From Nesterenkonia ebinurensis (GTDB lineage: Bacteria; Actinomycetota; Actinomycetes; Actinomycetales; Micrococcaceae): a DNA stretch of 64,000 bases. The stretch's first letter is position 1. Each line of letters opens with the position of its first letter. The stretch is taken from positions 1 through 64,000 of the forward strand of contig NZ_VWNF01000002.1 of assembly GCF_008711175.1 (NCBI RefSeq). The letters run 5' to 3'. Below are positions 8,564 through 26,009 of the stretch, one piece after another. The position numbers and the translations under genes were made by a program. The notes under the pieces are model-generated. The model had not been told where the DNA came from, did no database searches, and was given only the letters and a program-made list of their open reading frames with translations.

Positions 8564-8637
8564 GCGGATGTAGCTCAGCTGGCTAGAGCATCACCTTGCC
8601 ATGGTGAGGGTCGCGAGTTCGAATCTCGTCATCCGCT
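8564..8637 (+). tRNA. tRNA-Gly(GCC), copy 1
   Basis: 74-nt cloverleaf. The acceptor GCGGATG pairs with CATCCGC, the anticodon stem TCACC/GGTGA encloses the loop TTGCCAT (anticodon GCC), and the T-arm carries GTTCGAAT. CCA is not encoded. It is base-for-base identical to the copy at 8847-8920. Confidence 0.97.
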
Positions 8638-8659
8638 CGAAGGACACGAATCCCAATAT

Positions 8660-8846: not shown

Positions 8847-8920
8847 GCGGATGTAGCTCAGCTGGCTAGAGCATCACCTTGCCATGGTGAGGGTCGCGAG
8901 TTCGAATCTCGTCATCCGCT
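8847..8920 (+). tRNA. tRNA-Gly(GCC), copy 2
   Basis: Identical over 74 nt to the tRNA at 8564-8637. It ends five bases before the first paired base of the FMN riboswitch, so 3' processing of this tRNA and the riboswitch leader are closely linked if the cluster reads through. Confidence 0.97.
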
Positions 8921-8925
8921 CGCAA

Positions 8926-14796: not shown

Positions 14797-15110
14797 TCCC
14801 AGAAGTCAACTACAACAGTGCGGGCCTGGTGCCGGCCATCGCCCAGGATGCTGAGACCGGCGCGGTGCTCATGCTGGCCTGGATGAACGCCGAGGCGCTG
14901 GCCGCCACCCTGGAGACCCGCCGCGGCACCTACTGGTCACGCTCGCGCAACCAGCTATGGGTCAAGGGTGAGACCTCCGGGCACATTCAGCACGTGCGCT
15001 CGGTGGCCCTGGACTGCGATGCTGACACCGTGCTGCTGCAGGTCGAACAGATCGGACCGGCCTGCCACACCGGTCAGCCCACCTGCTTCACAGAGGGGGA
15101 GATCAGCTGA
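14793..15110 (+). CDS. hisI: Phosphoribosyl-AMP cyclohydrolase
   Basis: Third step of histidine synthesis. The 105-residue, HisE-less form has [34 protein letters not shown], the zinc and magnesium ligands in [11 protein letters not shown] and the final [13 protein letters not shown] start (14793) inside the hisF stop region, and a one-base overlap with trpE, so translation is probably coupled through the whole his-trp junction. HisE and HisI are separate genes here, unlike the enterobacterial fusion. Confidence 0.96.
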
Positions 15111-16672
15111 TGAAGTCCTTAGGCGTTGTGGTGCCCGCCCAGAAGGAGTTCCTCCAGCTGGCCGGGGCGCACCGGGTGATTCCGGTGACCATGACCCTGC
15201 TGGCCGATAGGCACACCCCGCTGAGCATCTACTGGGCGCTGGCCACCGATGAGACCGGCGGCAGCAAACCCGGCAGCTTTCTCATGGAGTCCGCCGCCCC
15301 CGGGGCCGCCTGGTCCCGGCACAGCTTCATCGGGGTGAACTCCCTGGCCACGCTGAGTGAGCAGAACGGGCAGGCCCGCTGGATCGGCACCCCGCCGGCC
15401 GGGGCCCCCACCGAGGGGCCCAGCGCTGAGGTGCTGCGCCAGACCCTGGAGTTCTTGGGCAGCCGGGCCTTCGCAGAGGAACTGCCGCACCTGGCCTCCG
15501 GATTAGTGGGCTATGTGGGCTGGGACGTGGTCCGCCAGTGGGAGAAGCTGCCGAACCCACCGGAAGACGGTTTGGGGCTGCCCGAGCTGGCCATGAACCT
15601 GGTCTCCGATCTGGCGGTGCACGATAACCGTGACGGCACCGTGACCCTGATCGCAAACGCCATCAACAAGGATGGTCAGCCCACCGGGGCCGAGAGAGCA
15701 TACCGCGACGCGGTGGCCCGGCTGAGGGCCATGCGCGAGAAGCTCTCCCGCCCGGTGGAACCCGGGCTGGCCGCCGCTGAACCCGACTGGACCCAGCAGG
15801 TGGAACAAGACTTGCAGGAGAAGGTGCAGCTGAGCTGGGGCCAGAACGAATACCTGGCCACCCTGGGCAAGGCCAAACAGGCCATTGTGGACGGTGAGGT
15901 CTTCCAGATTGTGGTCTCCCGCAGGTTCGAGGTGGCCACTTCGGTGGATGCGCTCTCCGTGTACCGCATGCTGCGGCTGCTCAACCCCAGTCCCTATATG
16001 TACCTGATGCACTTCCAGACTCCCACCGGGCAGCCCTACCAGGTGGTGGGCGCCTCCCCAGAGGCCCTGGTCACCCTGGATGCTGACCGGCAGGTGGTCT
16101 CCCACCCGATCGCCGGCACCCGGCCGCGCGGCAAGACTCCCGCCGAGGACGTGGAGCTGGCCGAGGACTTACTGGCCGATGAGAAGGAACGCGCTGAGCA
16201 CATCATGCTGGTGGACTTAGCCCGCAACGATTTGGCTAAGGTGTGTGTGCCCGGCTCTGTGGAGGTCACCAAGTTCATGGCCGTGGAGCACTTCAGCCAC
16301 GTGATGCACCTGACCAGCCATGTCCAAGGGGAGGTGGCGGCGTCGTCGTCCCCCTATGACGTGCTGGCAGCCACCTTCCCGGCAGGCACCCTCTCCGGGG
16401 CGCCCAAGCCGAGGGCCCTGCAGCTGCTGGACGAATGGGAGCCGCACACCCGCGGGGTCTACGGCGGAGTGGTGGGCTATTTTGACCTCTCGGGACGGAT
16501 GGATGCGGCCATCGCGATCCGCACCGCAGTGCTCACCGGCGGCAAAGCCTATGTGCAGTCCGGCGGCGGGATCGTAGCCGACTCCGTGGATGAGTCCGAA
16601 CGCCTAGAGACCGTGAACAAGGCCGCTGCCCCGCTCAGAGCGGTTCTGGCCGCTGATAGATTAGTGGGCTAA
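15110..16672 (+). CDS. trpE: Anthranilate synthase component I
   Basis: Makes anthranilate from chorismate with the glutaminase TrpG (not in this window). 520 residues. The C-terminal chorismate-binding domain is complete: FQIVVSRRFE, AGTRPRGKT, RAEHIMLVDLARNDLAKVC, HVMHLTSHVQGEV, GTLSGAPKPRALQLL, GGVVGYFDLSGRMDAAIAIR and VQSGGGIVADS. The N-terminal regulatory part (FLMESA region) carries the Trp-binding Ser of the family. The ATG overlaps the hisI stop by one base. The EVAASSS stretch (near 16.33 kb) uses gcg and tcg codons, reading as the 11-mer GGCGGCGTCGT. Confidence 0.97.
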   Translation: MKSLGVVVPAQKEFLQLAGAHRVIPVTMTLLADRHTPLSIYWALATDETGGSKPGSFLMESAAPGAAWSRHSFIGVNSLATLSEQNGQARWIGTPPAGAPTEGPSAEVLRQTLEFLGSRAFAEELPHLASGLVGYVGWDVVRQWEKLPNPPEDGLGLPELAMNLVSDLAVHDNRDGTVTLIANAINKDGQPTGAERAYRDAVARLRAMREKLSRPVEPGLAAAEPDWTQQVEQDLQEKVQLSWGQNEYLATLGKAKQAIVDGEVFQIVVSRRFEVATSVDALSVYRMLRLLNPSPYMYLMHFQTPTGQPYQVVGASPEALVTLDADRQVVSHPIAGTRPRGKTPAEDVELAEDLLADEKERAEHIMLVDLARNDLAKVCVPGSVEVTKFMAVEHFSHVMHLTSHVQGEVAASSSPYDVLAATFPAGTLSGAPKPRALQLLDEWEPHTRGVYGGVVGYFDLSGRMDAAIAIRTAVLTGGKAYVQSGGGIVADSVDESERLETVNKAAAPLRAVLAADRLVG

Positions 16673-17256
16673 TGGGCTATCTCGCGTACTTCTTCCAGCG
16701 CCGCAACACGATCCTGGTCGTGCAGCTCGGCGCCATCCTGCTGCTGGTCTCCACCGCCCTGACCTGGGTGCGGGTCACCGGACTGCCGGAGACTGCCACC
16801 ACCAGCTCAGTCTCCCTGGTGGGCGCGGAGATGTCGCCAGCACTGGGCACCATGGGTCTGGTGGGTGTGGCCGGAGGCGTGGCCGCCAGCATTGCGCGGC
16901 GCTGGGTGCGCGGACTGATCGCCGCAGTGCTGCTGGGTGCCGGGGTGATGGCCCTGTTCGGCACCTTCGGTGCGATCATCTCACCGGCCGATGCCGCCGC
17001 CTCCGCCCTGGCCGAGCACACCGGCACCACCGAGCGTGCCGGGCAGTACTCAGTGGGCTGGGCGGTCTGGATGGGCTTAGCCGGCTCCGGGCTGCTGAGC
17101 CTGGGCTCACTGGCCATGCTGCTGTTCTCACCCGGTTGGTCCGATGAGAAGACCACCAAGAAGTACTCCCGCGGGGAGGCCCAGGCCGAGAACCCCGATG
17201 AGATCGACATGTGGGACGACCTCTCCGACGGCGATGACCCCACCGATAAGAAGTAG
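16672..17256 (+). CDS. Trp biosynthesis-associated membrane protein
   Basis: 194 residues with four predicted membrane segments (about 13-33, 58-78, 80-105 and 130-152) and an acidic cytoplasmic tail (NPDEIDMWDDLSDGDD). This is the conserved actinobacterial Trp_oprn_chp family, always beside trpE or trpC. Its biochemical role is unknown. Its ATG overlaps the trpE stop by one base. In related genomes the HGxxPAAW gene and trpC follow within a few hundred bases. Here 6.2 kb of accessory DNA intervenes. Confidence 0.88.
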   Translation: MGYLAYFFQRRNTILVVQLGAILLLVSTALTWVRVTGLPETATTSSVSLVGAEMSPALGTMGLVGVAGGVAASIARRWVRGLIAAVLLGAGVMALFGTFGAIISPADAAASALAEHTGTTERAGQYSVGWAVWMGLAGSGLLSLGSLAMLLFSPGWSDEKTTKKYSRGEAQAENPDEIDMWDDLSDGDDPTDKK

Positions 17257-17467
17257 CTGTTCGGGCAGGGGCCAGGTGGGAACTTCCATCGGAACCTGTT
17301 TAAAGCCTGGCCGGGTCAGCCTGCGGAGGCGATGGAACTTCTAGGGTGGGCCGACCCGCTGACAAGGAGTAGCTGAGACTCAGCTTTCGGCCCATTATTG
17401 CAAAGCTTCCGGGTATGGAATCTTAGGAGAGTAGTAGACTGAGGTCATCAGCCATAGGAGGTCTGAA
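17257..17467. other. Intergenic junction between the trp run and the accessory island
   Basis: No gene is visible. An inverted pair TTCCATCG (17284-17291) and CGATGGAA (17330-17337) could form a long-loop hairpin and, with the flanking GGCCGGGTCAGC / CGACCCGCTGAC, may act as the terminator of the truncated rib-his-trp transcript. From about 17.38 kb the sequence becomes less GC-rich as it approaches the parD-like gene. Confidence 0.35.
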
Positions 17468-17767
17468 ATGACTGCGAGGCGCCAGTACTCGGTGACTTTG
17501 AGTGCAGAAGTGGCCGAAGCCCTGGAGGAATGCGTACGTGCGGGTGTCTATGCCGACATCAACGATGCCATCAGTCAAAGTGTGGACCACGAGCTGGAGG
17601 AAGCAGGAGACACCCCGGGGTTCACCAGGTTCGTTGAGGTTGAAGTTCATGCTGCTGCTCAGGAACTGGATGAAGACCCCGACGCTAGGCTTACCACTGA
17701 GCAGGTCTTTGCTCGCGTAGGGCAGCGTAAGCGTGAGCTGCTTGCGCGCCGCGCCGAAGTGACATGA
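17468..17767 (+). CDS. ParD-like antitoxin
   Basis: 99 residues. RQYSVTLSAEVAEALEECV followed by AGVYADINDAISQSVDHELE is the ribbon-helix-helix pattern of ParD/CopG-type antitoxins, with an acidic C-terminal toxin-binding tail. AGGAGG lies seven bases before the ATG. Its stop overlaps the ATG of the toxin frame (ATGA at 17764), the usual arrangement of a TA operon. The toxin partner is frameshifted, so this antitoxin may persist alone or counter related toxins elsewhere. Confidence 0.8.
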   Translation: MTARRQYSVTLSAEVAEALEECVRAGVYADINDAISQSVDHELEEAGDTPGFTRFVEVEVHAAAQELDEDPDARLTTEQVFARVGQRKRELLARRAEVT

Positions 17768-18070
17768 GCGAATACGACCTTGTGCTGGTCGCTCCGTGCC
17801 GAGAATCATATCTTTGACCATTGGTGCTATGTGGCGGACGTAGGTGGGATCAGCGCTGCTGATGCGTGGGAAGCTAAGTTTCGCACTTTCTGCGACAAGC
17901 TGACCTACTCGGCTGGCTCATACCGACAGCGTGAAGATCTCGGTCCTGGGTACAGGACCGTGACTTTCAGGAAGCAGGTCAAAGTCATTTACCGAGTCCG
18001 CGGTTCCCGAGTGGAAGTGCTCGGCGTGTACAGCACCAGACAGGATTGGGAAGCAAAGCTGAGGGACTGA
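17764..18070 (+). pseudogene. ParE/RelE-like toxin, inactivated by a +1 frameshift
   Basis: The ATG at 17764 opens MSEYDLVLVAP, then the frame runs into a stop. The next frame, one base on, continues AENHIFDHWCYVADVGGIS and ends GYRTVTFRKQVKVIYRVRG plus VEVLGVYSTRQDWEAKL, which is a RelE/ParE toxin with its typical C-terminal strand. A single extra base in ccgtgccgag (about 17791-17802) accounts for the shift. All the rest is intact, so the mutation looks recent. Loss of the toxin is consistent with a relic TA module at the edge of the island. Confidence 0.75.
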
Positions 18071-18073
18071 CTA

Positions 18074-18242
18074 CGGATCTGGCAGAATAGAGCAGAAGAA
18101 CTTCGACACTGTGTAGAAGGAGCCTCGCGCATGGCCACAGCCCAGAGCCAGACTGCAGTCCGCGATGTGGAGCAGCAGCCCGCATCAGCCGATGAATTCA
18201 TCCACTACGACCACATCGGCCACGGCTCCACCCCGGCTGCCT
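18074..18242. repeat. Left copy of a perfect 169-bp direct repeat
   Basis: Identical base for base to 23422-23590 (offset 5348). It contains the 57 bases upstream of the HGxxPAAW gene, including its AAGGAG site, and the first 37 codons. It ends within the codon after TPAA. It starts four bases after the toxin pseudogene stop and ends directly at the HigB fragment. The two copies bound 5.2 kb of accessory DNA. Confidence 0.97.
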
Positions 18243-18274
18243 CCGGGGAACCGCTTGGAACGGCTGAAGGGTGA
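18131..18274 (+). pseudogene. Truncated duplicate of the HGxxPAAW gene
   Basis: Same ATG and ribosome-binding site as the intact gene at 23479, but after [10 protein letters not shown] the frame leaves the repeat and ends seven codons later ([10 protein letters not shown], then stop). The 47-residue product lacks the Trp of the HGxxPAAW motif and both membrane segments. It is a by-product of the duplication that created the island boundary. Whether the peptide is made is unknown. Confidence 0.85.
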
Positions 18275-18377
18275 CCGGGCGGGACAGTACAGCATCAGAA
18301 TCAATGACCAGTGGCGGATCTGCTTCGTGTGGACCGCAGCCGGTCCTGAGGAGGTTGAGATCGTTGACTACCACTGA
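18243..18377 (+). pseudogene. HigB-type toxin, C-terminal fragment
   Basis: Directly after the repeat the sequence reads [20 protein letters not shown] and then [10 protein letters not shown]...EEVEIVDYH, the conserved C-terminal half of HigB/RelE-like toxins ([11 protein letters not shown] and the terminal DYH). The first half of the gene, some 45-50 codons, is missing, cut off at the repeat junction. It is out of frame with the truncated HGxxPAAW gene and cannot make a functional toxin. The cognate HigA remnant follows five bases later. Confidence 0.85.
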
Positions 18378-18381
18378 CCAC

Positions 18382-18677
18382 ATGGACAAGTTGGTACCTA
18401 TCCACCCCGGGGAAGTTCTCATGGAAGATTTCCTGGAGGGGTTCGGCATCACGCAGCACAAGCTGGCTGTATAGACATTGGTGTGCCACCGCGTCGCATC
18501 AATGAGATCGTCCACGATAAGCGGCGCATCACCGCTGATACTGCACTACGGCTGGGAAAGTACTTCGGCGTCTCTGCCCAGTTCTGGCTCAATCTCCAGA
18601 CCCACTATGACCTCGACGTTGCAGAGGACGTGGCCGCCGAGCAGATCCAGACCATCCGGCCTCTGGAGGTAGCATGA
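18382..18677 (+). pseudogene. HigA-type antitoxin with frameshift
   Basis: Frame 1 reads MDKLVPIHPGEVLMEDFLEG, then FGITQHKLAV and a TAG stop (18472-18474). Two bases further on, the protein resumes as IGVPPRRINEIVHDKRRI and continues LGKYFGVSAQFWLNLQTHYD to the end, the HigA helix-turn-helix and C-terminal helix. Thus the sequence tagac replaces one codon (+2 shift). The 5' truncation of HigB and the shift in HigA show a dead module. The stop overlaps the ATG of the following HIT-like gene. Confidence 0.8.
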
Positions 18678-19168
18678 GTGACTGGCGTGGCGACCGTGTG
18701 GGTGCGGCGCTTCAAGGACGTAATCCCACCGTAGTAGCAGAGTTAGATGCCGCGTTTGCCGTAATTGGGGACGTTCAGTTCCTGCCTGGCTACAGCCTGG
18801 CACTGACGAAGGTGCCTGGCGTTGATCGCCTCTCGGATCTTCCACGGGCTGAACGGCTGAGCTACCTTGCAGACGTCGACCTCCTTGCGGCGGCCGTAGA
18901 GACGGTATGCGCTCGCTTCGACAGCGCCTATCGCCGAGTGAATGTGGAGATTCTGGGAAACACGGATGCCTTCCTGCACACTCATATCTGGCCGCGATAC
19001 GACTGGGAACCCCCAGAGATCATCGGAAAGCCTGTCTGGCTCTATCCGCACGAATACTGGAAGGATCCCGCCAAGGCGCTCCGCACCCAACATGACGACC
19101 TTCGCGCGGCGCTGACAGAAGAGGTTGCTCGGCTTCGAGACTCGATCGAGTTCCAATTCCACGTCTGA
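18674..19168 (+). CDS. HIT-superfamily protein (dinucleotide polyphosphate hydrolase-like)
   Basis: 164 residues. RRVNVEILGNTDAFLHTHIW followed by PRYDWEP aligns with the HIT motif by its PR. The second and third His of HxHxH are kept (H-T-H), but the first is Phe. A conserved N-terminus (AVIGDVQFLPGYSLAL) and VWLYPHEYW are typical of an actinobacterial subfamily often annotated as diadenosine tetraphosphate hydrolase. Substrate not established. ATG overlaps the HigA remnant stop. No membrane or signal segment. It looks intact, unlike its upstream neighbours. Confidence 0.7.
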   Translation: MSDWRGDRVGAALQGRNPTVVAELDAAFAVIGDVQFLPGYSLALTKVPGVDRLSDLPRAERLSYLADVDLLAAAVETVCARFDSAYRRVNVEILGNTDAFLHTHIWPRYDWEPPEIIGKPVWLYPHEYWKDPAKALRTQHDDLRAALTEEVARLRDSIEFQFHV

Positions 19169-19261
19169 ATCACCGATCAGGCACTCAGTTTGGCATGTAA
19201 CTCGACCGGTTGCCCTCTCTAACCGGTGCGGAGTCGCCGAGCACCGGACTAAGCTCAGTGG

Positions 19262-19582
19262 ATGATTACTGTGCATCTGCGTTATGAGATCGATCCGGAT
19301 AAGATCGAGGAGTTCGCCGAGTACGGCAGGCGATGGATTCGGCTGGTCAATAAGTTCGGCGGCACCCACCACGGTTACTTCCTGCCCAGCGAAGGTGACA
19401 ATGACGAAGCCTTCGCCCTCTTCAGCTTCGATTCGTTAGCCGCTTACGAGCAGTACCGGATTGAGGCCGCGCAGGATGAAGAGTGCATCACCGCGTACGA
19501 GTTCTCACAGGAGACGAAGTGTATCCGCCGATATGAGCGCCGATTCCTTGCCCCACTCTTCGGAGATACTTCAGCATCCTGA
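19262..19582 (+). CDS. NIPSNAP-family protein
   Basis: 106 residues with the ferredoxin-like NIPSNAP fold: MITVHLRYEIDPDKIEEF, GGTHHGYFLP and FALFSFDSLAAYEQYR. Members are small, widespread and of uncertain function. TAAGCT at 19250-19255 ends six bases before the ATG, and no Shine-Dalgarno is seen, so the message is probably leaderless. It stands alone between the HIT-like gene and VapBC. Confidence 0.75.
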   Translation: MITVHLRYEIDPDKIEEFAEYGRRWIRLVNKFGGTHHGYFLPSEGDNDEAFALFSFDSLAAYEQYRIEAAQDEECITAYEFSQETKCIRRYERRFLAPLFGDTSAS

Positions 19583-19641
19583 GCGTCTCCATTTTCCACA
19601 GGCACTTATTTGCAGTGCCCGGCCCGGGGTAAACTGGGCCC

Positions 19642-19848
19642 ATGACAGTAACCCGTGAAGAGCTTCACGACCTCATCGACAGATTGCCTGCCGATGAGTT
19701 GGAGCGGGTTGCCCGCACACTTCAGACAGGTAGTTCGGCGCCACAGGTTTCACCGCCTTGGCCCCAATCATTGGGGATGGTCAAAGCCGCCGACCCCAAA
19801 GCCTCCGAACGGGTGGATGAGCATTTGGCCAAAGGCTTCGGCCGTTGA
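19642..19848 (+). CDS. VapB-like antitoxin
   Basis: 68 residues: an N-terminal helical part (TREELHDLIDRLPADELERV) and an acidic C-terminus. It immediately precedes and overlaps a PIN-domain toxin (stop TGA at 19846-19848, toxin TTG at 19845), which is the basis for the call. The sequence itself is weakly conserved. TAAACT at 19630-19635 ends six bases upstream of the ATG with no Shine-Dalgarno, so transcription probably starts at the ATG itself. Confidence 0.65.
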   Translation: MTVTREELHDLIDRLPADELERVARTLQTGSSAPQVSPPWPQSLGMVKAADPKASERVDEHLAKGFGR

Positions 19849-20273
19849 TCCTTGTTGATACCGGGCTCCTAGTCGCCTTGGTCAGCGAATCCGACGATCA
19901 TCACAGACGGTGCAGAGAATGGTTCTCCACCACAGACAGATCCCGGCTACGTGTCCCAGCATCGATCATTGCAGAAGCCTGCTACATGATTGCCCTACTC
20001 CAGGGCCCAGCGGTGGAAGCTGCTTTCCTGCAGGACTTGGCCAACGGAGCCTACGGACAACTGCTCGACATTACGTCTGCAGATCTGCGCAGGATGAGCC
20101 AGCTCGTCTCGCAGTACGGTGACCTTCCCCTGGGCGGAACAGACGCCTCGCTAGTGGCTGTGGCCGAACGGGTGGACAGTTCGGAAATAGCAACAGTGGA
20201 CCACCGCCATTTCTCCGTGGTCCGGCCACGGCATACGCCGTCATTCACGCTTCTACCGGCCCTGGCGTCATAG
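19845..20273 (+). CDS. VapC-like toxin (PIN-domain ribonuclease)
   Basis: 142 residues with the PIN-domain acidic set: Asp in MILVDTGLL, Glu in IIAEACYM, Asp in LPLGGTDASLVAVAER and Asp in EIATVDHRHF. PIN toxins cleave tRNA or rRNA and are held inactive by VapB. TTG start inside the antitoxin stop gives translational coupling. All catalytic positions are kept and the frame is intact, so this is the only apparently functional TA pair of the three in the island. Confidence 0.85.
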   Translation: MILVDTGLLVALVSESDDHHRRCREWFSTTDRSRLRVPASIIAEACYMIALLQGPAVEAAFLQDLANGAYGQLLDITSADLRRMSQLVSQYGDLPLGGTDASLVAVAERVDSSEIATVDHRHFSVVRPRHTPSFTLLPALAS

Positions 20274-20288
20274 CACCCGACGGGACCC

Positions 20289-20347
20289 GCCCAATCCTGC
20301 CTAGGCTATTTACGCCCACCAGAGGTTAATCCGCTTTTGAACTCGAC
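20289..20347. repeat. Left copy of an imperfect 59-bp direct repeat flanking the SDR cassette
   Basis: Matches 23067-23125 with three mismatches (offset 2778). It contains the palindrome GCCTAGGC. On the minus strand it encodes the end of a reading frame, VEFKSGLTSGGRK and stop (20306-20308). The copies bound the SDR/TetR/NmrA-like/DUF4260 genes. Two of the three differences fall in that coding stretch (one conservative, one silent), so the copies may come from two related genes rather than one recent duplication. Confidence 0.85.
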
Positions 20348-20382
20348 CGATTTCAGGGGTGCCTAGTCCGCCGAGGCTGCGT

Positions 20383-21165
20383 CTACGTTTGAGCTGGGCG
20401 AGTCTCCATCAGGCGCAGCACAGTTGATCTCGGCAGTGCTGCCACCAGTCTTTTGATCCAGCGGTTAAGCCCTCCGGAGATGACGCTGTGCGGCGGATTC
20501 TTTCGGCACAGGGCACGCAGTGCTGTGGTGACGACATCCTCCGGAGTTTGGAACCGCACTCCGCTCTCGGAAGTGCCGGAGGCGCTGTAGAACTCTGACG
20601 CGGTAGGTCCAGGAGATAACGCCATAACAGTGAGGCCGGTTGAGCGCACTTCATGAGCCAGCGCCTCGGTGAACCGCACCACGAACGCCTTTGACGCTGC
20701 GTATACGGCCATACCTGGCACCGGCATATACGCAGTCAGACTGGCGACGTTGACCAGTGCACCCCGCCCAGACTCCAAGAGCTGAGGCACAAAAGCATGA
20801 GAGATATCGACTGTGGCAATGATGTTGACCCGCAGCTGCCGCTCGATCTCTTCGTCTGTGGAGTTCCCGAAGCTGCGAGTCACCCCGACCCCGGCACAAT
20901 TGATGACGGCGTCGATCACGATCCCAGCTTCCGCCAGTTGCTCGGCCAAAACAAAGCCCGCCCGCTCAGCTGACAGGTCGAGTGGAACGACGTGCACCTG
21001 CCTGCCGGTGGCAGCACGAATGCCGACGGCCAGCGCTTCGAGCGTGGCTGCCCGCCGCGCTACCACGACGACGTCGGCTCCTTCCTGGGCCAGGCGGCGG
21101 GCGAATTCAGCACCGATACCTGAGCTCGCCCCGGTCACCAGGGCTGTGGTTCCTTCGTACTTCAT
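20383..21165 (-). CDS. Short-chain dehydrogenase/reductase
   Basis: 260 residues. TALVTGASSGIGAEFARRLA is the classical SDR cofactor motif (TGxxxGIG), with NCAGVG (NAG motif), the catalytic Ser in LVNVASLTAY, YAASK (YxxxK) and LSPGPT. The Arg-rich segment VVVARRA after beta-2 suggests NADP(H). ATG at 21165 has AGAGG five bases upstream. The open frame extends seven codons further without support. Divergent from the TetR gene across a shared 105-bp region, so the two are probably co-regulated. Substrate unknown. Confidence 0.88.
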   Translation of the reverse strand: MKYEGTTALVTGASSGIGAEFARRLAQEGADVVVVARRAATLEALAVGIRAATGRQVHVVPLDLSAERAGFVLAEQLAEAGIVIDAVINCAGVGVTRSFGNSTDEEIERQLRVNIIATVDISHAFVPQLLESGRGALVNVASLTAYMPVPGMAVYAASKAFVVRFTEALAHEVRSTGLTVMALSPGPTASEFYSASGTSESGVRFQTPEDVVTTALRALCRKNPPHSVISGGLNRWIKRLVAALPRSTVLRLMETRPAQT

Positions 21166-21202
21166 GTGAACCTCTCGTTTCAGCAAGCCTGCCCGCCTCC
21201 CT

Positions 21203-21247
21203 CAATGTGAGAGCTTTACACATTAGAGTAGACTAGCAATGTGAGAG
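21203..21247. promoter_or_regulatory. Candidate TetR operator in the SDR/TetR divergent region
   Basis: CAATGTGAGAG occurs twice (21203-21213 and 21237-21247), and the first copy forms a dyad with CACATT (21219-21224): AATGTG, nine bases, CACATT. It lies midway between the two divergent starts, where a TetR-family repressor would control both. Binding is inferred. Confidence 0.5.
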
Positions 21248-21270
21248 ACTGCAACATAGGAGGTTTGACG

Positions 21271-21867
21271 ATGTCTGGACGTGGTTATCATCATGGCAAT
21301 CTGCGCAACGCGCTGTTGGCTGCTGCATCGGAACTGGTGCGTGAGCGCGGCGCCCGGGGGTTCAGCGTGTCCGAGGCCGCCAGGCGCGTCGGGGTTTCCT
21401 CCTCCGCTCCCTACCGTCACTTCCCCGATCGTGACGCGATGCTCGCCGCAGCAGCTTTGACAGGCTTCGTTGAGCTGGAAGAACGATTCGAGAGCCTGCC
21501 CGTTGTGCAGACGTTCACGGACACAGCAGCGCACATCGCCGCCGAATATGTGCGCTTCGCACGCGAGGACCCCTCCCGGTTCGAGATGATGTTCGCCCAC
21601 GGGATCGACAAGTCCAAGCACGCCGACCTGCTCCAGCAGACTTTCCGGGTCCAAGAGCGCTTTGAAGCTGCACTGGCCCAGCATCTGCAGCCCACAGAGT
21701 CCATCCGACGATACTCAGCCGAACTCTGGTCAATTGCCCATGGTGCAGCCACCCTGGCTATCGGAGAGAACATGCAGCATCTAGTACCTGACACGCAGAT
21801 CAGCGAACTCGCCAGCTCAACAGCCACAGCCTGGGCACAGGGCATCACCGAGGCGTCCGGGAGCTGA
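21271..21867 (+). CDS. TetR/AcrR-family regulator
   Basis: 198 residues from ATG 21271, chosen because AGGAGG lies seven bases upstream. The N-terminal helix-turn-helix is clear: GNLRNALLAAASELVRERGA, FSVSEAARRVGVSSSAPYRH and FPDRDAML. The C-terminal ligand domain has ELWSIAHGAATLAIG near the end, the WxxxHG pattern of the TetR_C_33/WHG type. It probably represses the divergent SDR gene and itself, and may also control the downstream NmrA-like and DUF4260 genes. Inducer unknown. Confidence 0.88.
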   Translation: MSGRGYHHGNLRNALLAAASELVRERGARGFSVSEAARRVGVSSSAPYRHFPDRDAMLAAAALTGFVELEERFESLPVVQTFTDTAAHIAAEYVRFAREDPSRFEMMFAHGIDKSKHADLLQQTFRVQERFEAALAQHLQPTESIRRYSAELWSIAHGAATLAIGENMQHLVPDTQISELASSTATAWAQGITEASGS

Positions 21868-21944
21868 GACTGCGACGAAGTCGCGGCAGCGGTTCTTACC
21901 CAATCCTGCTTGGGCTTTTGGCCTCTCCATAGAAAAGGAATCAC

Positions 21945-22583
21945 ATGAAGTTTCTCGTTCTCGGCGCTACAGGCGCCACCGGTACGCTGTTCACCGACAC
22001 CGCCATCGTCGCTGGCCATCAAGTGGTCGCACTGGTGCGCAACCCGCAGAAACTCCCCGCACGCGAGGGCCTCCAGGTCGTTTCTGGCGACGTCCGCGAC
22101 ACCGAGGCGATCGCACACGCCGGGGATGGAACCGACGCGGTCATCAGTACTCTCGGAGTCGGGAACACCCGACAACCGGACAGCCTCATTCACGATGCCA
22201 CGCGAGCGGTCATCGACGCCGCGGCTCATACTGGCCTACAACGTATCGTGTGGCAGTCAGCCCTCGGCGTGGGCGAGTCCTACCCCAAGGTTTCCTTGCT
22301 GATGCGCCTGGGCTATCGAGCAGCACCCGAGGTGTTCCGTGACAAAGCCCGCGCAGAACAGCTCCTGCGCGCCTCCACCCTGGACTGGACAATCGCCTAC
22401 CCCGGAGTGCTGACCAAGGGCCCGGGCACCAAACAAGTCAGAGCCACCAACCTCGATGACATCGACAAGATCAAAGGCATGCCCCGAATCGCCCGGGCTG
22501 ACGTCGCCGACTTCCTCCTGACTGCCGCGACCACCACCACATGGAACAAACGCATCGCCGTCCTCACCACGAGATCACGGTAA
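21945..22583 (+). CDS. NAD(P)-binding NmrA-like / SDR-atypical oxidoreductase
   Basis: 212 residues. MKFLVLGATGATGTLFTDTA gives the GxxGxxG dinucleotide motif, followed by VVALVRNPQKL and GDVRD, typical of NAD(P)H-binding NmrA-like or flavin-reductase-like proteins. The segment RAEQLLRASTLDWTIAYPG is the family's substrate-side signature. AAAAGGA precedes the ATG by five bases. Lies 77 bases after tetR in the same direction. May act in redox or quinone stress with the other cassette genes. That role is inferred from context only. Confidence 0.8.
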   Translation: MKFLVLGATGATGTLFTDTAIVAGHQVVALVRNPQKLPAREGLQVVSGDVRDTEAIAHAGDGTDAVISTLGVGNTRQPDSLIHDATRAVIDAAAHTGLQRIVWQSALGVGESYPKVSLLMRLGYRAAPEVFRDKARAEQLLRASTLDWTIAYPGVLTKGPGTKQVRATNLDDIDKIKGMPRIARADVADFLLTAATTTTWNKRIAVLTTRSR

Positions 22584-22620
22584 GCGCGGGAATATTGACC
22601 ACGAAACAGAGAGGCACAAC

Positions 22621-23028
22621 ATGCCTGCAGAGAGTTCACAACCCCAGGCATATGGCTGGCAGCGGTCGGAAAACGCGCTGATCGCTGCTGCGATCCTCCT
22701 GGCCATGATCGCCTGGAGCCAGTCATGGTGGGTGCTGCTACTGGCCTTCCTCGTCTTCGACCTCTCTGCCCTGGGCTATATGGTCAACCAGCGGGTGGGA
22801 GCGTTCTGCTACAACCTGGTGCACAACTACACTGCTCCGGCCCTCCTCATGGCAGGCTGGGCAGCGTTGAGCCTCCGTGCGGTGAACGCTGAGTGGATGA
22901 TGGTGCTTGCGGCCTGCTGGGGCTTCCATGTCGCTGTTGACCGCGCCTTGGGCTTCGGGCTGAAACTCGGCCCATTCACTCACACCCACCTCGGCCTCAT
23001 CGGAAACGCCCGATCCACAGGGTCGTAA
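22621..23028 (+). CDS. DUF4260 membrane protein
   Basis: 135 residues with about three hydrophobic segments (residues 18-50, 70-88 and 92-105). Typical of DUF4260: VFDLSALGYMVNQRVGAFCY, a Tyr/Asn/His-rich strip (NLVHNYTAPAL), WGFHVAVDRALGFGLK and FTHTHLG. Function unknown. Membrane location is inferred from hydrophobicity. Last gene of the cassette, 38 bases before the right-hand 59-bp repeat. Confidence 0.75.
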   Translation: MPAESSQPQAYGWQRSENALIAAAILLAMIAWSQSWWVLLLAFLVFDLSALGYMVNQRVGAFCYNLVHNYTAPALLMAGWAALSLRAVNAEWMMVLAACWGFHVAVDRALGFGLKLGPFTHTHLGLIGNARSTGS

Positions 23029-23066
23029 CGGGTTCCGACTGTCGAAAGTTCAGGGAGGAGCCTCTT

Positions 23067-23125
23067 GCCCAAGCCTGCCTAGGCTATTTACGGCCACCAG
23101 AGGTTATTCCGCTTTTGAACTCGAC
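23067..23125. repeat. Right copy of the imperfect 59-bp direct repeat
   Basis: Three mismatches against 20289-20347. On the minus strand it encodes VEFKSGITSGGRK plus stop (23084-23086), and here the reading frame continues upstream into the gene remnant that follows, so this copy is the better preserved 3' end. Confidence 0.85.
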
Positions 23126-23335
23126 GAGGTTCTCGGCGTACAGGTCAAAGTCGTTGTCCGTCGGTGGGTCTCCGCCGGGCGGTCAGGTCACCTTTTGCCG
23201 TCAGCCACGCCAGGGCCCCTGCGTCCAGGGCGTGACTGGAAGCGAAAGCGGTGTCGCCGGTGATGATCTCGGGTTCTCGTTCGGCGAGGTAGTCGATGGA
23301 GACCGAAATGATGCTGGCCCAAGGCCATGACGCGG
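23084..23335 (-). pseudogene. Remnant of an unidentified gene
   Basis: Minus-strand translation gives DYLAEREPEIITGDTAF followed by ALDAGALAWLTAKGDLT, which looks protein-like. After a frameshift near 23165 it gives TDNDFDLYAENLVEFKSG to a stop at 23084. No start is visible upstream, and the segment meets non-coding DNA before the right 169-bp repeat. I do not recognise the family. An antitoxin or toxin remnant would suit the neighbourhood, but nothing in the sequence proves it. Confidence 0.4.
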
Positions 23336-23421
23336 TCAGCTGGTGTTAGCCGCAAAGATTCTGACCCTGCTGGGCAGGATTGGCGAATAAGAGTCAGGCG
23401 TGAGGGTACAGACTGAACACC

Positions 23422-23590
23422 CGGATCTGGCAGAATAGAGCAGAAGAACTTCGACACTGTGTAGAAGGAGCCTCGCGCATGGCCACAGCCCAGAGCCAGA
23501 CTGCAGTCCGCGATGTGGAGCAGCAGCCCGCATCAGCCGATGAATTCATCCACTACGACCACATCGGCCACGGCTCCACCCCGGCTGCCT
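23422..23590. repeat. Right copy of the perfect 169-bp direct repeat
   Basis: Identical to 18074-18242. Here it runs into the intact HGxxPAAW gene, so this copy keeps the functional 5' end, ribosome-binding site and leader. Any promoter inside it now drives the trpCBA part of the operon. Confidence 0.97.
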
Positions 23591-23871
23591 GGACGCTGTC
23601 GATCATCCTGATCACCGGCAGCGTGGTCGCCGGGGTCGGCTTCATCGGGCTCTACTGGTCTGACGCCTGGTGGATCGCCATCTGGATCGGTGCAGCCTGC
23701 GTGCCGCTGGCCCTCATCATGGGCATCGTGCTGAAGAAGGCCGGCTACGGGGTGGAAATGGACTCCGACGCCGTGCTGAAGCAGGGTGCTGACCCGCGCG
23801 CCCACTCCGGTCCGGCCACCCCGGACAACACCTCCGGCGGCGCGCAGAAGCGCGAACCTAGTCAGAGCTGA
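23479..23871 (+). CDS. HGxxPAAW-motif membrane protein
   Basis: 130 residues. [11 protein letters not shown] is the family signature, followed by two membrane segments (about residues 38-58 and 65-85) and a hydrophilic tail. It is conserved in actinobacteria between the trp membrane gene and trpC. Function unknown. AAGGAG precedes the ATG by eight bases. The stop is directly followed by the trpC ATG. The first 37 codons and leader exist in a second, truncated copy at 18131. Confidence 0.88.
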   Translation: MATAQSQTAVRDVEQQPASADEFIHYDHIGHGSTPAAWTLSIILITGSVVAGVGFIGLYWSDAWWIAIWIGAACVPLALIMGIVLKKAGYGVEMDSDAVLKQGADPRAHSGPATPDNTSGGAQKREPSQS

Positions 23872-24762
23872 ATGAGCACCGTCCTCGACTCCATCATCGA
23901 AGGGGTCCGCGAAGACCTCGCCGGGCGCAAAGCCGCCGTTGCGCTGCATGAGCTTGAGCAGCGGATCGCCACCACGCCAGCCCCCTTGGACGCCCATGCC
24001 GTCCTAGCCGGCGGCCGCAGCGATCCCGCCGGGGTGCGAATCATCTCCGAGGTCAAACGCAAATCCCCCTCCAAGGGTGACCTGGCGGAGATCACCGACC
24101 CCGCCGAGCTGGCCCGCGCCTACCAGGCCGGCGGAGCCAGCGTGATCTCCGTACTCACGGAGGCCCGCCGATTCAGCGGCTCACTGGCCGATCTGGAGGC
24201 AGTCCGCGCAGCAGTGGACATCCCGGTGCTGCGCAAAGACTTCATGGTCGATGACTACCAGTTCTACGAGGCCCGGGCCTACGGTGCTGATCTGGTGCTG
24301 CTCATCGTGGCCGCCCTGGACGATGCCCAGCTGCGCGACTATCTGGCCCTGACCCACCAGCTGGGCATGAATGCCCTGGTGGAGGCCCACACCATCGAGG
24401 AGATCGAACGCGCAGCGGCAGTCGGCGCCAAGCTGGTAGGCGTCAACGTCCGCAACCTCAAGACCCTGGATGTAGACGTCCAGCACTACGCGGCCATGGC
24501 CCGCCACCTGCCTGAGCATGTGGTGCGGATCGCCGAGTCCGGAGTCGAAGGCCCCCAGACAGTCCGGGACTACGCCGCACAGGGTGCCGATGCCGTGCTG
24601 GTGGGCGAAGCCCTGGTCCGGCACGGTGATCCGGAGCTGGCAGTCAAGGAGTTCCGGGCGACCTCGCTTGACTCACGCCCTTCAATCGCCTCAGGAGATT
24701 CGGAACAAGCTCCGGTCTCCGCTCGGCTCAATCGGTCGTCGTTGGCAGAGGAGACAGTGTGA
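23872..24762 (+). CDS. trpC: Indole-3-glycerol phosphate synthase
   Basis: Ring closure step of tryptophan synthesis. TIM barrel with [14 protein letters not shown] (phosphate and catalytic Lys), [58 protein letters not shown] and [14 protein letters not shown]. The enzyme proper ends near residue 262. A further 30-35 low-complexity residues ([17 protein letters not shown]) extend the usual length to 296. ATG immediately after the HGxxPAAW stop. Overlaps trpB by four bases. Confidence 0.96.
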
Positions 24763-26009
24763 GCACAGGCTTTCGTGAAGCATCCGGACCCTACTTCGGG
24801 GACTACGGCGGGCGCTGGATGCCAGAATCCCTGGTCGCCGCCCTGGACGAGCTCGCCGATGCCTTCGGCAAAGCTAAGGCCGATCCGGAGTTCACCGAGG
24901 AGTTCGAGCGGCTGTCCCGTGAGTACACCGGCCGGCCCTCCCTGCTCACCGAGGTGCCGCGCTTCGCCGCCGAGTCCGGTAAGGCCCGGATGTTCCTGAA
25001 GCGGGAGGACCTCAACCACACCGGCAGTCACAAGATAAACAATGTGCTGGGCCAGGCGCTGATCGCCCGCCGGCTGGGCAAGACCAGGCTGATCGCTGAG
25101 ACCGGAGCTGGCCAGCACGGGGTAGCCACCGCCACCGCAGCCGCCCTGTTCGGCATGGACTGCATGGTCTACATGGGCGCTGAGGACACCCGTCGTCAGG
25201 CACTCAACGTCGCCCGGATGCAGCTGCTGGGTGCCCAGGTGGTGCCTGTGGAACACGGGGCACAGACCCTCAAGGACGCCATCAACGAGGCGCTGCGCGA
25301 CTGGGTGGCCTCAGTGGAGACCACCCACTATGTACTCGGCACCGTGGCCGGCCCGCACCCATTTCCGGAGATGGTCCGCTGGTTCCACCAGGTCATCGGC
25401 GAGGAGGCCCGCGCCCAAATCCTGGAGGCCACCGGCCGGCTGCCCGATGCGGTCACCGCCTGTGTGGGCGGCGGCTCCAACGCGTTAGGCATCTTCCACG
25501 GGTTCCTGGACGACCCCAGTGTTGCCCTCTACGGCTATGAGGCCGGCGGGGAGGGCCTGGAGACCTCACGGCACGCCGCAGCCATCACCCTGGGACGCTC
25601 CGGGGTGCTGCACGGGGCGCGCAGCTACCTGATGCAGGACGAGGACGGCCAGACCGTAGACTCACACTCCATCTCCGCCGGACTGGACTACCCATCGGTA
25701 GGTCCCGAGCACGCCTACCTGGCCGATGCCGGACGGGTCACCTACGAGCCGGTCACCGATGCCGAATGCATGGCCGCCTTCGAATCCCTCTGTCGCACCG
25801 AGGGCATCATCCCCGCCATCGAATCCGCCCACGCCCTGGCCGGAGCCGCCCGGCTTTCCGCCGCCTGGGGTGAGGACGGCGCCGAACGGCTCATCATCGT
25901 CAGCCTCTCCGGCCGCGGCGACAAAGACGTGGCCACCGCCGCCAAATGGTTCGACCTGCTCCCGGCAGAGGGGAACACCGAGGCTCCGCAGGAAGGCGTC
26001 CAGGCATGA
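24759..26009 (+). CDS. trpB: Tryptophan synthase beta chain
   Basis: PLP enzyme joining indole and serine. 416 residues with [13 protein letters not shown], the PLP lysine in [35 protein letters not shown], the phosphate loop [12 protein letters not shown], and the catalytic-region [11 protein letters not shown] start overlaps the trpC stop. The stop overlaps the trpA ATG, so the alpha and beta subunits are made in a coupled way for the alpha2beta2 complex with its indole tunnel. Confidence 0.97.

Follow-up and report, generated by a model that had tools for sequence, protein, structure and literature searches.

Linear donor DNA with one homologous end can enter the chromosome of Escherichia coli after being trimmed and re-circularised, by a single crossover. 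In the part of the study drawn on here this accounted for 56 of 60 clones, the other four arising by homology-facilitated illegitimate recombination (HFIR); duplications of 109–950 bp were found in 14 sequenced single-crossover clones, and most HFIR joints showed 3–10 bp of micro-homology (PLoS One 2011, PMC3240628). Here we describe a locus of comparable structure in Nesterenkonia ebinurensis (assembly GCF_008711175.1), within a window of 64,000 nucleotides (contig NZ_VWNF01000002.1, positions 1–64,000 of the forward strand; all unprefixed positions below are those of the window). In it the run of trp genes is interrupted by two inserts, a parDE-type toxin-antitoxin segment and a larger accessory island bounded by a perfect 169-nt direct repeat (copies R1 and R2). 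We hold, at about even confidence, that the island is a homology-anchored accident, in which a single crossover brought in a trimmed and circularised leader-plus-island fragment or an illegitimate event on one side gave the same product. The locus may thus be a natural example of how accessory genes come to stand in a conserved gene run when no enzyme is dedicated to the task.

The duplicated leader and the interrupted trp gene run

R1 and R2 are 100% identical over 169 nt, lie at a spacing of 5348 nt and have exact limits, the flanking bases mismatching on either side. Each copy holds a 57 bp leader followed by codons 1–37 of an HGxxPAAW gene (NCBIfam NF041681). R2 runs on into the complete gene (130 aa); in R1 the 37 codons are followed by ten new codons and a stop, giving an open reading frame (ORF) of 47 residues, and the repeat abuts the C-terminal 46 positions of a HigB toxin (positions 46–91 of the 91 in the PF05015 profile). 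The initial annotation, made from the letters and their ORFs, had described all of this correctly: the perfect repeat, the leader and 37 codons in both copies, the intact gene on the right and the fusion to half of higB on the left. The copies differ in what lies to their left, parDE in the case of R1 and the island's right end in that of R2, and the first base of both is the same. The assembly of this genome (3.74 Mb, 50 contigs) contains no third copy, R1 and R2 being the only matches at E <= 0.001. Perfect identity had also been read as the mark of a recent event. It hints at one, but 0 differences in 169 positions bound the divergence only to less than 1.8% and exchange between the copies would preserve identity as well, so that by itself it is no proof. 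The other exact direct repeats of at least 40 bases within the window all come from one tRNA-Gly gene pair, the identical tRNA-Gly(GCC) genes at 8564–8638 and 8847–8921 on either side of tRNA-Cys and tRNA-Val, an ordinary arrangement.

That the interruption is an insertion is supported by the relatives. A search with the HGxxPAAW protein matched 29 of the 30 genomes of the genus, our own included (G028 gave no match), in collections with one genome per species. The Trp-associated membrane protein gene lies upstream of the HGxxPAAW gene in 27 of the 28 relatives' loci, the 28th (L009) ending at a contig edge; the gap between the two genes is short (about 0.4 kb or less) in 22, about 1.1 kb in five and cut by the contig end in L009. 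Only 61 bp separate the genes in Nesterenkonia alkaliphila (L067), with a single leader copy 92% identical to the repeat, and the parDE segment is likewise missing from this gap. An empty site with one leader copy had been named beforehand as the check for insertion into the trp run, and N. alkaliphila supplies it; none of the 27 relatives with a readable gap carries the island there. The longer gaps hold, as read by eye, what we take to be a PanE-like ORF (L005, L012, L014) or, on the opposite strand, presumably a rhodanese-like ORF (L016, L030). The matches listed for the 28 matching relatives include neither a duplicated leader nor another HGxxPAAW 5′ end; where a genome gave more than one match (G001, G014), these were split or overlapping pieces plus one weak distant match. 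In two genomes (L007 of G020 and L011 of G009) the membrane gene itself is present as two adjoining copies.

The interruption, which begins after the stop codon of the membrane gene (17256) and reaches the start of the intact HGxxPAAW gene (23479), measures 6.2 kb, the size first given for the split of the trp run; the parDE segment left of R1, which shares this interruption, had gone unmentioned. The order is an 817 bp parDE segment, R1, the higB remnant, higA, HIT, NIPSNAP, a VapBC-like pair, a short-chain dehydrogenase (SDR), TetR, an NAD(P)-binding protein, DUF4260, a remnant and R2 (Table 1). GC content is 0.57–0.62 in the pieces of the interruption, compared with 0.67–0.68 for the trp genes on either side and 0.65 for the window; the parDE segment, at 0.57, compares with 0.67 in trpE plus the membrane gene.

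The place of entry is narrow. A motif, TGGCAGAATRG, is conserved in 27 of 29 leaders, our own included, and starts six bases inside the repeat, and both inserts end at the same leader base. It resembles a −10 promoter element, and its conservation and position suggest a promoter role. In N. alkaliphila there are 6 bp from the membrane gene stop codon to GATCTGGCAG, next to the promoter-like motif; an insert that spares both genes must fall in this slot. The insert lies exactly between two gene units, the duplicated leader restoring the promoter-like motif and the gene start, and since R2 carries the motif along, the downstream trp genes should stay expressed. Between the motif and the HGxxPAAW start lies an imperfect dyad, CTTCGACACTGTGTAGAAG (18101–18119 and 23449–23467), which is perhaps an operator; N. 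alkaliphila has it unchanged, and several more relatives have a similar one.

At the left joint the island begins inside a gene. A search of the relatives with the island DNA, in which 10 candidates per genome were scored, gave 15 higBA matches; ten start at 18234–18240, five more rightward and none more leftward, and three plasmid entries among the matches listed also start at 18234–18240. HigB homologues carry Val-Pro-Pro-Gly at this point, and comparison of the intact HGxxPAAW sequence GCTGCCTGG with the joint GCTGCCTCCGGGG (GCTGCCT-GGACG versus GCTGCCT-CCGGGG) makes an overlap of 3–5 bp with the higB codon run for these residues possible. The toxin-antitoxin pair at the left end is ruined, with half of higB and a higA that contains a stop.

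Table 1. Features of the interrupted trp gene run, in window coordinates
Feature	Position	Strand	Evidence or remark
trpE, anthranilate synthase component I, left flank	15110..16672	+	Pfam PF00425, PF04715
Trp-associated membrane protein gene (Trp_oprn_chp), left flank	16672..17256	+	Pfam PF09534
First insert, parDE-type toxin-antitoxin segment	17257..18073	+	between membrane gene stop codon and leader
ParD-like ORF	17468..17767	+	named by position before parE; no Pfam/NCBIfam match
ParE toxin	17780..18070	+	Pfam PF05016, 29.8 bits
Repeat copy R1	18074..18242	+	promoter-like TGGCAGAATAG at 18080–18090, leader, first 37 HGxxPAAW codons
Truncated HGxxPAAW ORF	18131..18274	+	37 codons, 10 new codons, stop
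higB toxin gene, 3′ half, fused to R1	18243..18377	+	Pfam PF05015, positions 46–91 of 91
higA antitoxin, broken	18382..18677	+	extra 2 bp relative to homologues, in-frame stop; TIGR02607 on 3′ part
HIT-domain protein	18674..19168	+	Pfam PF01230, 22.2 bits (cut-off 21.5)
NIPSNAP family protein	19262..19582	+	Pfam PF07978
VapB-like antitoxin ORF	19642..19848	+	assigned by position; no Pfam match
VapC-type PIN-domain toxin	19845..20273	+	Pfam PF01850
D2 copy 1, 59–60 bp repeat	20289..20348		antisense of ychF 3′ tail (VEFKSGLTSGGRK-stop)
Short-chain dehydrogenase (SDR)	20383..21168	-	Pfam PF00106
TetR-type regulator	21241..21867	+	Pfam PF00440, PF13305
NAD(P)-binding protein	21945..22583	+	Pfam PF13460
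DUF4260 protein	22621..23028	+	Pfam PF14079
D2 copy 2	23067..23126		95% identity to D2 copy 1 over 59 bp
Island right-end remnant	23127..23421		two ORFs without Pfam match
Repeat copy R2	23422..23590	+	promoter-like TGGCAGAATAG at 23428–23438
Intact HGxxPAAW gene	23479..23871	+	NF041681; followed by trpC (PF00218) and trpB

The cargo of the island and the ychF 3′ end

The cargo first read from the translations (HigA, HIT, NIPSNAP, VapBC, SDR and TetR) is recognised by Pfam and NCBIfam, save VapB, which is assigned by position only; the NAD(P)-binding and DUF4260 proteins are further members. None of the island ORFs searched against these databases has an integrase or transposase domain, in line with the earlier statement that no integrase is present. 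The genome has eight Phage_integrase matches, and the seven listed are all on other contigs. Insertion sequence (IS) ends of a composite transposon were not seen, the ends being the HGxxPAAW leader and gene start, although no search aimed at IS was made, and an Rfam scan of 15000–25000 gave no match reaching the gathering score. In the parDE segment, the parE frame from the ATG at 17764 meets a stop, so that its start is either broken or the TTG at 17780. Part of the gap between the membrane gene and parD (17270–17351) matches G016 at 76% identity over 82 bp and shows, by eye, an imperfect inverted repeat.

A plasmid origin of the island was considered and rejected. Of 72,556 plasmid records 67 match, all at 60–80% identity and with less than 80% of the query covered; the 20 matches listed are to single genes or gene pairs, and one right-end ORF had no match among the plasmid records.

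Within the island a 59-bp repeat, D2 (20289–20347 and 23067–23125, 95% identity), brackets the SDR-TetR-NAD(P)-binding-DUF4260 block. On the opposite strand it reads as a ychF C-terminal tail, VEFKSGLTSGGRK-stop. In G002 ychF has this same end, those of G020 and G015 have similar ends and the broken ychF end of G027 matches D2. Across 29 genomes of the genus (L092–L120) the ychF C-terminus is RFNV/KFNV in 22, RFAV in three, KSGLTSGGRK-like in three and broken in one, and the DNA downstream mostly differs, as would be expected if elements often integrated behind this gene. Apart from the window, loci L072, L073, L074 and L076–L081 carry the element. The D2 pattern occurs at 10 places in 6 of the 30 genus genomes and, in 395 genomes of the family sampled from a larger group, in six, belonging to one genus of 32; BLAST adds weaker copies, e.g. 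on contig C22 of our own genome and in G003. Neither the D2 core nor the R1-higB joint had an exact match in viral contigs.

In G002 two D2 copies follow ychF at distances of 2.4 and 3.6 kb, and the SDR and TetR genes between ychF and the nearer copy are 79% and 64% identical to those of the window; that block has an extra GNAT gene and is missing the NAD(P)-binding and DUF4260 genes. A second type of ychF tail stands ahead of higBA, its pattern found at eight places in 6 of the 30 genomes: two are ychF ends (our own genome and G016), five lie 2.7–13.7 kb downstream of ychF on the same strand and the last belongs to a different contig. A higBA match follows each of the eight, and the other 7 of the 15 higBA matches are without such a tail. 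Elsewhere in the relatives, among the candidates scored, the island DNA is present as separate pieces (higBA, SDR-TetR, DUF4260, NIPSNAP, vapBC, D2) and never whole. The right-end remnant has only short matches in the loci compared (32 bp in G016 and the G002 ychF region, 22 bp in G020). Judged by these similarities, a good part of the trp island resembles pieces of the accessory DNA that follows ychF. In G010 an aminoglycoside adenylyltransferase-type gene (L090:2887–3786) lies downstream of ychF, directly before a ychF-tail-like sequence and higBA.

The ychF 3′ end is suggested as an integration hot spot of Nesterenkonia, and the dispersed 60-bp element may bound small cassettes. A stronger version, that D2 is the boundary of an unrecognised Nesterenkonia cassette system whose units are gathered at the ychF 3′ end by a tyrosine integrase and spill to trp and other places by illegitimate events, we consider rather doubtful. 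The units so proposed would be SDR-TetR-NAD-DUF4260 in the window and LOG/NUDIX, GNAT-SDR-TetR and MFS elsewhere, with the 60-bp ychF-tail element in a single orientation; the proposal draws on five units in three genomes (one in the window, two in G002, of which one ends at ychF, and two in G027, of which one has a degenerate copy). In G017 (L076:4470–6797) a 453-aa tyrosine integrase and two small ORFs, of which one matches HTH_17 below threshold, are found less than 1 kb from a D2 copy, and G017 and G003 have in common a stretch on the integrase side with a 17-bp match to D2. Near relatives of this integrase (L141–L143, 87–89% identical) have no D2 nearby at E <= 0.05, and as the agent of D2 the enzyme is a lead only. 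D2 was also considered as an integron attC site and rejected, since the two copies on both strands gave folding z-scores of 1.01, 0.93, −0.29 and −0.19 against shuffles; no integron integrase was found among the island ORFs tested, and a tyrosine integrase lies beside a D2 in G017. A satellite prophage upstream of ychF has been reported in a pneumococcus, in the part of that source drawn on here, and ychF was not among the matches listed from the literature on attachment sites and tyrosine recombinases.

Routes by which the island may have arrived

The homology-anchored accident would have involved two lineages. In lineage P, parDE would have been inserted directly behind the membrane gene stop codon; in lineage Q the accessory island, largely DNA of the ychF-downstream type, would have been inserted at the same place. 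A fragment from Q, running from mid-higB through the island and leader to HGxxPAAW codon 37, would then have entered a P cell, its trimmed ends would have been joined into a circle, and one RecA crossover through the 169-bp leader would have given the order membrane gene, parDE, R1, half higB, island, R2, intact gene. The same product would arise by HFIR if a fragment from P entered the chromosome of Q and the illegitimate joint fell within higB. We infer the two lineages, the circular intermediate, the order of events and the promoter role. The scheme fits an exact repeat whose island shows no integrase domain in the tested ORFs, and the locus has the form of a single-crossover scar, an insert between duplicated target homology with one new illegitimate joint. 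Ku is encoded in 25 of the 30 genus genomes including our own, so that end joining is available. Single-crossover integration followed by deletion had been among the first suggestions; we keep the single crossover and replace the rest by a trimmed, circularised donor. The start of the repeat bears on the choice as well: a leader duplicated with parDE already in place should have given a repeat that extends into parDE or begins within the leader, and with R1 and R2 starting at the same base, two independent inserts in one slot, later combined, would be the least coincidence.

Several observations weigh against this account. Lineages P and Q were not seen among the collections, and two prior inserts at one site are required. 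Against a ychF-type origin of the cargo, our own ychF locus (contig C5) is without the trp island, several D2 copies are on other contigs or distant from ychF (in G005 by 56 kb and on the opposite strand), and the right-end remnant is unaccounted for. The overlap at the joint is suggested by relatives rather than by the real donor. higA is decayed yet the repeats are identical, which implies that the decay predates the event or that exchange keeps the repeats identical. Finally, the precedent is a selectable laboratory construct, and HFIR is very rare in E. coli conjugation, at 3x10^-10 per recipient in the results drawn on here (PMC3240628).

Repair of a break is the next account, which we regard as unlikely: the leader would have undergone a staggered break or a template switch, a foreign fragment would have been captured there by end joining or micro-homology, and fill-in would have duplicated the 169 bp. 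The foreign-looking cargo, the gene truncated at the joint, the presence of Ku and the lack of any recombinase in the tested island ORFs would all suit it. A random left break, in contrast, is expected in parDE or within the leader, not precisely at the boundary between them, and a stagger of 169 bases would be long.

An element entering the 5′ end of the HGxxPAAW gene and bringing a replacement 5′ end was the layout first proposed. It would have an integrase, lost or acting in trans, use the leader as attachment site. In its favour are the gene start restored on the right, the direct repeats that flank the island, the relative's empty site with one copy and the conserved dyad CTTCGACACTGTGTAGAAG in the leader, but the dyad is also present in insert-free relatives and hence looks regulatory. 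With no recombinase domain in the tested island ORFs, a left joint in the middle of higB, a ruined toxin-antitoxin pair there, parDE separating R1 from the membrane gene, and 28 matching relatives without a duplicated leader, i.e. a site not reused by related elements, we find this layout unsupported and consider site-specific integration improbable. We think equally little of a tandem duplication of leader and island in one lineage followed by loss of one island copy: two identical leaders would also result, but the deletion must recreate the exact leader start next to parDE, and no second copy of island DNA is seen except the 59-bp D2. Least probable is an assembly artefact, in which the true chromosome would have a single leader and the repeat would have caused a false join to an island that is free or lies elsewhere; a perfect 169-bp repeat may mislead a short-read assembler, the assembly is a draft of 50 contigs and the other resolution is an intact locus plus a 5348-bp circle, but no replication gene was recognised among the tested ORFs of such a circle, the R1-higB and island-R2 joints place the repeat beside the island whichever resolution is chosen, and both copies lie within one 97.8-kb contig.

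The repeat might also provide the way out. Recombination between the copies had been proposed as able to excise the island; joining the flanks in silico leaves an intact HGxxPAAW gene, and excision by RecA is itself possible.

Comparison with known systems

Genomic islands are known to integrate at the 3′ ends of genes and to replace the gene tail. The D2 copies and the tails ahead of higBA are like these in resembling ychF 3′ ends; unlike them, the D2 copies of the window are far from ychF, which is on contig C5, and no integrase was found with them.

The closest parallel to the locus as a whole is the re-circularised integration in E. coli (PMC3240628), where, in the part of the report used, foreign DNA likewise stands between duplicated target homology with one joint in a homologous gene. 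There the donor was a laboratory construct with a selectable marker, whereas here a natural event would have taken place in another phylum. HFIR as described in the portions used for Streptococcus, Acinetobacter and Pseudomonas (PMC3240628, PMC5361080) shares one homologous anchor, one joint of low homology and a loss of recipient DNA where that joint forms, in our case the 5′ half of higB. It usually produces an insertion together with a deletion; in our account the repeat is present since the recipient would have kept its own leader beyond the joint. The orphan immunity arrays of the Vibrio cholerae type VI secretion system differ from the present locus, which has a trp-linked leader as anchor, no effector array and a single genome to represent it; as far as the part of that report used describes them (PMC5361080), they resemble it in that new modules arrive behind a conserved anchor, older genes are displaced and remnants are left.

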